A DNA stretch of 64,000 bases, taken from positions 1 through 64,000 of the forward strand of contig JASBTQ010000022.1 in the NCBI GenBank assembly GCA_030148335.1, given 5' to 3'. How positions within the stretch are numbered: position 1 is the stretch's first letter; each line of letters starts with the position of its first letter. The notes below the pieces were generated by a model. It was given only the letters and a program-made list of their open reading frames with translations, was not told the origin of the DNA and ran no database searches. A program made the translations under genes and the position numbers. This document shows positions 62,950 through 63,112 of this stretch, piece by piece. The stretch comes from Allomuricauda sp. Its GTDB lineage: Bacteria; Bacteroidota; Bacteroidia; Flavobacteriales; Flavobacteriaceae.

Positions 62950-63060
62950 TTTCTAAAAAATTTTAGTAGGTTAAAACTTAATTTTCCTTACCGTCGATTT
63001 GGCCAAAATTGTAAGATTGTGGTGAAGCTATATAAAACTCATAGTACAATACACGCTAAA

Positions 63061-63112
63061 TTGATGGATGCCCCTTTTGGGTTGAGGGATGCCTTATTTG
63101 AATTGACGGATG
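63061..63112. promoter_or_regulatory. Three direct repeats TTGATGGATG/TTGAGGGATG/TTGACGGATG, 21-bp period
   Basis: Copies begin at 63061, 63082 and 63103, upstream of the minus-strand small-peptide gene. Confidence 0.75.

Follow-up and report, generated by a model that had tools for sequence, protein, structure and literature searches.

A probable tandem-repeat operator of LytTR type at cell-surface gene promoters of Flagellimonas/Allomuricauda and its candidate regulator

The window analysed here, a 64,000-nt stretch of an Allomuricauda sp. genome (contig JASBTQ010000022.1, positions 1 to 64,000), contains two operons preceded by tandem repeats of the same design, which raises the question of whether one regulator controls both and, if so, which protein that regulator is. 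At the 63-kb locus the repeats TTGATGGATG, TTGAGGGATG and TTGACGGATG begin at 63061, 63082 and 63103, and at the 10-kb locus TTGACGGATG, TTGGTGGATG and TTGACGGATG begin at 10234, 10255 and 10276, with a period of exactly 21 bp in both cases. The letters, positions and spacing given for the 63-kb trio by a first-pass annotation of this DNA were thereby recovered, together with the likeness that it had claimed between the spacers of the two loci (first spacers CCCCTTTTGGG and ACCCTTTTGGT). Dinucleotide shuffling of the window (100 shuffles) produced no repeat pairs. The features of the two loci are as follows.

59224..61905, minus strand: outer-membrane receptor-like protein (CarboxypepD_reg-like N-terminus)
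61938..62675, minus strand: GLPGLI-type protein (Pfam Porph_ging)
62740..62949, minus strand: 69-aa exported small protein, first gene of the operon (signal-like N-terminus on the ORF; no Pfam family)
63023..63030, minus strand: inferred -7 box TAGCTTCA, phased like other sites and placed according to PMC9723704
63061..63070, minus strand: gene-proximal half-site, CATCCATCAA on the gene strand (from a 123-site alignment)
63082..63091, minus strand: middle half-site, CATCCCTCAA
63103..63112, minus strand: distal half-site, CATCCGTCAA
8448..10151, minus strand: 567-aa lipoprotein-like protein, first gene downstream of the 10-kb operator (ORF and N-terminus; no Pfam family)
10197..10204, minus strand: inferred -7 box TACCTTAT
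10234..10243, minus strand: gene-proximal half-site, CATCCGTCAA
10255..10264, minus strand: middle half-site, CATCCACCAA
10276..10285, minus strand: distal half-site, CATCCGTCAA

Anatomy of the repeat-bearing promoters

Alignment of 123 sites resolved the repeats into 10-nt half-sites with an 11-nt spacer, the half-site reading CATCCRTCAATT in the direction of the gene, the spacer YYCAAA and the period being 21 bp. Two half-sites were found in 94 of the 123 sites, three in 26 and four in 3. A -7 box, TAnnTTTG, begins 30 nt (range 29–31) after the gene-proximal half-site, and its best-kept letters are T at 34 (92% of the sites), T at 35 (85%) and A at 31 (71%); no conserved element that could serve as a -33 box follows the gene-proximal half-site in the 123 aligned sites. 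The alignment pools orthologous sites from related genomes, not all of which are independent. The count within the genome that holds the window (own genome) is independent, and here 21 of 25 sites were observed to carry at least four of the six box letters at 29–31 nt, compared with a mean of 1.7 sites at each of the other offsets.

In Flavobacterium the -7 box spans -12 to -5 (PMC9723704), and applying this placement positions the half-sites at about -52/-43 and -73/-64. The 63-kb operator has its box 30 nt past the proximal half-site, with transcription predicted to start near 63018, and the corresponding start for the 10-kb operator is predicted near 10192. A -7 box without a -33 box is what promoters served by an activator operator would be expected to show. 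The first-pass annotation had assigned the core element to a GTTTTAT block, which does stand 22 nt from the last repeat at both loci; as a core promoter, however, it was rejected, since only the two window sites among the 123 have it, and the conserved core is TAnnTTTG at +30. The block shared by the two window sites is a coincidence.

Distribution and target genes

A search of the own genome (84% complete) with the gene-strand consensus (half-site CATCCRTCAA, 21-bp period, spacer YYCAAA) returned 12 exact pairs, 20 at no more than one mismatch and 54 at no more than three, whereas the reversed-pattern control returned 0, 0 and 1, respectively. Pattern search and local scans, with PWM scans on selected stretches only, placed the operator at approximately 25 promoters of this genome (control, 0–1). 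Within the genus, identified as Flagellimonas/Allomuricauda from relatives of the receptor gene, 51 of 61 genomes contained pairs at no more than one mismatch, the number in a genome ranging from 0 to 23. A further 150 genera, represented by one genome each, yielded only a few matches, which were simple repeats or isolated. The operator is common in Flagellimonas/Allomuricauda and nearly absent in other Flavobacteriaceae. Likewise, three relatives in the genus that keep the receptor operon (75–82% identity) also keep the repeats upstream of it, and none were found upstream of orthologous receptor operons in other genera or in more distant Muricauda/Allomuricauda species. A repeat pair with the spacer TGTAACAAAA, seen at one place in the own genome (C5:78073-78103) and at four genus loci (L083, L089, L097 and L100), was excluded from the alignment as a different class; it is conserved in several species and fits the half-site pattern, yet looks like a separate class.

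At 91 of the 123 sites, a gene of 80 or more codons on the same strand was observed to start within 300 nt, at a median distance of 69 nt. These downstream genes were enriched in lipoboxes (36 of 91, compared with 98 of 937 other genes; p 1e-11) and in hydrophobic N-termini (66 of 91 compared with 339 of 937), although both tests rest on heuristics and on data pooled from related genomes. Among the targets are DUF285/PKD lipoproteins, CHU_C and Por_Secre_tail proteins, the window's GLPGLI/receptor operon, and a tandem trio of collagen-like lipoproteins (L049:8330-10877), each of whose genes has its own copy of the operator.

The same distance from operator to -7 box recurs at approximately 25 promoters of the own genome and across most Flagellimonas/Allomuricauda species, and strongly supports the proposal of the first-pass annotation that one regulator serves both window operons. 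Shared control stands, but not the size of a two-operon regulon, which is far exceeded. The repeats are very probably the docking site of one gene regulator, and they stand before approximately 25 genes, mostly for cell-surface proteins.

Candidate regulator and alternative explanations

LytTR operators consist of repeats of 9–11 nt separated by 11–13 nt (PMC4847170), a definition that the present operator satisfies in repeat length and spacing, and it lies immediately before the core promoter. By these three features it is LytTR-type; that a LytTR protein binds it is inferred from linkage and co-occurrence with a regulator gene at a locus of the own genome denoted C31. The geometry itself is supported in Flavobacteriaceae because an orphan LytTR gene of the own genome (C20) independently shows it, adjoining a different direct repeat, CATTTCACAAC, which has a 21-bp period, an A-rich spacer and the same -7 spacing; in two other genera the orthologue of this gene is accompanied by the same arrangement. 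The CATTTCACAAC repeat lies after the orphan gene, at L072:8153 onward (own genome), L294:1501 and L303:1501. The literature searched gave no LytTR operator or regulon for Flavobacteriaceae, and searching it by motif letters returned only primers and unrelated matches. We know of no LytTR operator with the half-site CATCCRTCAA.

The C31 locus runs in the order operator A, conserved small membrane protein, operator B (-7 box TAGATTTA), conserved stretch, kinase and regulator. Two of its features are needed below.

C31:36056-36805 (L048:10054-10806), minus strand: candidate LytTR response regulator (Response_reg 69 bits and LytTR 53.8 bits, both above cut-off)
C31 ~39247-39454 (L048:13248-13455), minus strand: conserved covarying RNA stretch downstream of operator B

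The gene neighbouring the regulator encodes a LytS-type kinase (His_kinase PF06580 and 7TMR-DISM_7TM). The first-pass annotation had put forward no particular regulator. We consider, with a probability of roughly 0.75, that a LytTR-type response regulator, the C31 protein being the likeliest, uses the repeats as its operator and activates approximately 25 promoters through it, binding and activation both being inferred.

The linkage on which this reading rests was observed with a gapped pattern (half-site, N11, half-site, N30, TAnnTTTG) run against 301 genomes of the family. Wider loci around candidate sites in G145, G027, G350 and G257 each held an orthologue of the C31 regulator (57–61% identity), and in G042 the orthologue lies approximately 4.3 kb from the site, such that sites and orthologues are linked within approximately 7 kb in all five genomes. 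G350 and G257 share one arrangement, in which the operator comes first and is followed by a gene for an exported protein or lipoprotein, a GAF kinase, a 7TMR-DISM kinase and, last, the LytTR gene. Only 9 of 299 non-genus genomes have the orthologue, and sites at no more than one mismatch were present in 5 of these 9, compared with 4 of the 290 without it (Fisher p 8e-7); in three non-genus genomes with more distant orthologues (51–55%) no site was found near the orthologue. In a genome of another genus (G275), a one-mismatch site (L310, C6, ~8008-8038) is flanked by a lipoprotein gene on one side and, on the other, by a divergent LytTR/kinase pair other than the C31 orthologue.

Within the genus, operators were found upstream of the C31 regulator at 15 of 15 orthologue loci examined (best scores 20–54), in contrast to 0 of 15 control loci around another LytTR gene, C41, in the same genomes (maximum 9.6; p 1.7e-6). 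This p-value is indicative, as the score training set holds some same-genus sites and the 15 species are related. Four genomes (G157, G166, G210 and G189) lack the 7TMR-DISM kinase in the gene order and keep the operator, RNA stretch and regulator; regulator loci with the LytTR gene in this kinase-less form are L362, L370, L372 and L374. In such species the regulator may use another phosphodonor. No C31 orthologue was detected in G185, which has 11 sites, or in G152 and G191, which have 8–9 relaxed sites, and no clear substitute LytTR adjoined the sites examined in the latter two. Within the genus, genomes with an intact regulator showed only a weak excess of sites (p 0.058), and presence or absence of the regulator was discarded as a predictor on that account. 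The idea that an own-genome site beside purL (C8) is a relic of an ancestral locus was dropped as well, the site being at the opposite end of purL.

Some genomes thus keep sites without a C31 orthologue, and the own genome encodes 14 LytTR proteins, among them the C41 pseudo-receiver LytTR, with a degenerate triple site at a distance of 510 bp from its gene; an operator of LytTR kind might on these grounds be bound by another paralogue such as C41, or by several. We regard this as unlikely, because the C41 orthologue is found in approximately 37 other genera that are without sites and is missing from G152 and G191, and 15 of its loci lack the operator, whereas outside the genus it is the C31 orthologue that goes with the sites. 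C41 was accordingly rejected as the regulator, being widespread without sites and having empty control loci. The LytTR protein at L064:7687-8421 has a degenerate receiver, with Asn for the expected phosphorylated Asp, and is encoded upstream of a TPR-type kinase (9180-11159); the degenerate triple operator in this C41 intergenic region is directed at a divergent fn3 gene.

A direct-repeat binder from outside the LytTR family, for example of AraC type or a hybrid two-component system, could also use the operator, with the LytTR system as merely one of its targets: direct repeats with a 21-bp period are not confined to LytTR proteins, and the regulator locus could be just a conserved target. This seems improbable to a greater degree still, given that the geometry is identical to that of the independent LytTR/CATTTCACAAC pair and that a separate regulator would not require sites and C31 orthologues to co-occur outside the genus. 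A dispersed or mobile repeat without a regulatory role, which the first-pass annotation had named as its refuting case and with which copy numbers of 0 to 23 across the genus might agree, can be set aside almost entirely, as neither similarity past the motif nor promoter-independent positions were found: the copies are diverse outside the operator, with flanks unconserved except for the phased -7 box (present at 21 of 25 own-genome sites), and the strong own-genome sites face the next gene start.

For the C31 regulator, the following mechanism is proposed. Two, often three, regulator molecules would occupy the 10-bp CATCCRTCAA half-sites in tandem on the same face of the DNA. Bound at about -52/-43 and -73/-64, they would substitute for the absent -33 box and bring RNA polymerase to the TAnnTTTG box 30 nt downstream. 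In this way they would switch on approximately 25 promoters, among them those of both window operons, that serve genes for lipoproteins and T9SS cargo as well as receptor operons. The regulator would work with the 7TMR-DISM/LytS-type histidine kinase and would autoregulate its own locus through two operators, one of them preceding a structured RNA of approximately 235 nt. In other genera the operator mostly adjoins the regulator's own operon, the regulon having presumably spread in Flagellimonas/Allomuricauda. Promoter linkage is no proof of binding, and expression of the targets, activation rather than repression, and the signal are likewise inferred.

A conserved RNA and comparison with known circuits

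The alignment of the stretch downstream of operator B over 16 genomes has six helices, in which 97.8% of cells are paired, compared with 33–51% when the partners are slid. Twelve pairs were observed to have changed on both sides, compared with 4.4 (s.d. 1.3) in shuffles, none of 500 of which reached 12. The own sequence alone folds little better than its shuffles (z -1.63), and the case for a structured RNA therefore rests on covariation and conservation. In most genomes a T-rich tract follows the outer helix of the second domain, which is compatible with a terminator and an RNA of approximately 235 nt; its transcription is predicted to start near C31:39472 on the minus strand and to reach about 39239. 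Rfam gave no match above the gathering score (two chance-level matches fell far below threshold), and a model search of non-genus regulator loci and of the surroundings of the other own-genome sites found no further convincing copies. A possible short-ORF start, ATG GGG TTA TGC TGC, lies inside the stretch, but genomes differ in the length and frame of such an ORF. The function of the RNA is inferred, and a trans-acting role and a role as leader of the kinase/regulator transcript both remain possible.

These results provide an exact operator, a promoter geometry, a target list and a candidate regulator for a large marine genus. The operator ties that regulator to surface lipoproteins and T9SS cargo, and an undescribed covarying RNA adjoins the same operator. 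The operators of AgrA, YpdB, BtsR and PlnC are similar in that direct repeats of approximately 10 nt, set 11 nt apart, immediately precede the core promoter, and the regulators are similar in their receiver and LytTR domains and their LytS-type His_kinase partner; in contrast to them, the present promoters have two to four half-sites in a row, a Bacteroidota -7 box and no -33 box. In S. aureus, the LytTR regulator AgrA adjoins RNAIII, a regulatory RNA under its control. The C31 locus is alike in placing a LytTR regulator beside an RNA whose regulatory function is inferred, but no peptide-maturation genes were recognised there, and its RNA is approximately 235 nt long and without an Rfam match.

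The VirR/VirS system of C. perfringens, with its VR-RNA, controls a regulon of exported proteins and regulatory RNA that differs between strains (PMC2838878). It resembles the present case in the direct-repeat boxes immediately upstream of promoters and in a regulon of exported proteins and RNA; VirR boxes, however, are 7–8 nt apart and lie beside a -35 element, and the RNA described here is located at the regulator's own locus and has no established function. In C. difficile, RgaR repeats are found at the promoter of an sRNA, SpoZ, with critical bases at -51 and -72 (PMC10602386). That system belongs to another phylum, uses other letters and has a non-contiguous kinase and regulator, but its critical bases are 21 bp apart and fall within the half-site positions inferred here. 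We tentatively suggest, without holding it as the favoured outcome, that a flavobacterial LytTR two-component system and a structured regulatory RNA of its own jointly run a cell-surface regulon, as a Bacteroidota counterpart of the AgrA, VirR and RgaR–sRNA circuits, and that spread of the operator made a local autoregulator genus-wide; the comparison between genera would then offer a visible case of a local autoregulator turning global.
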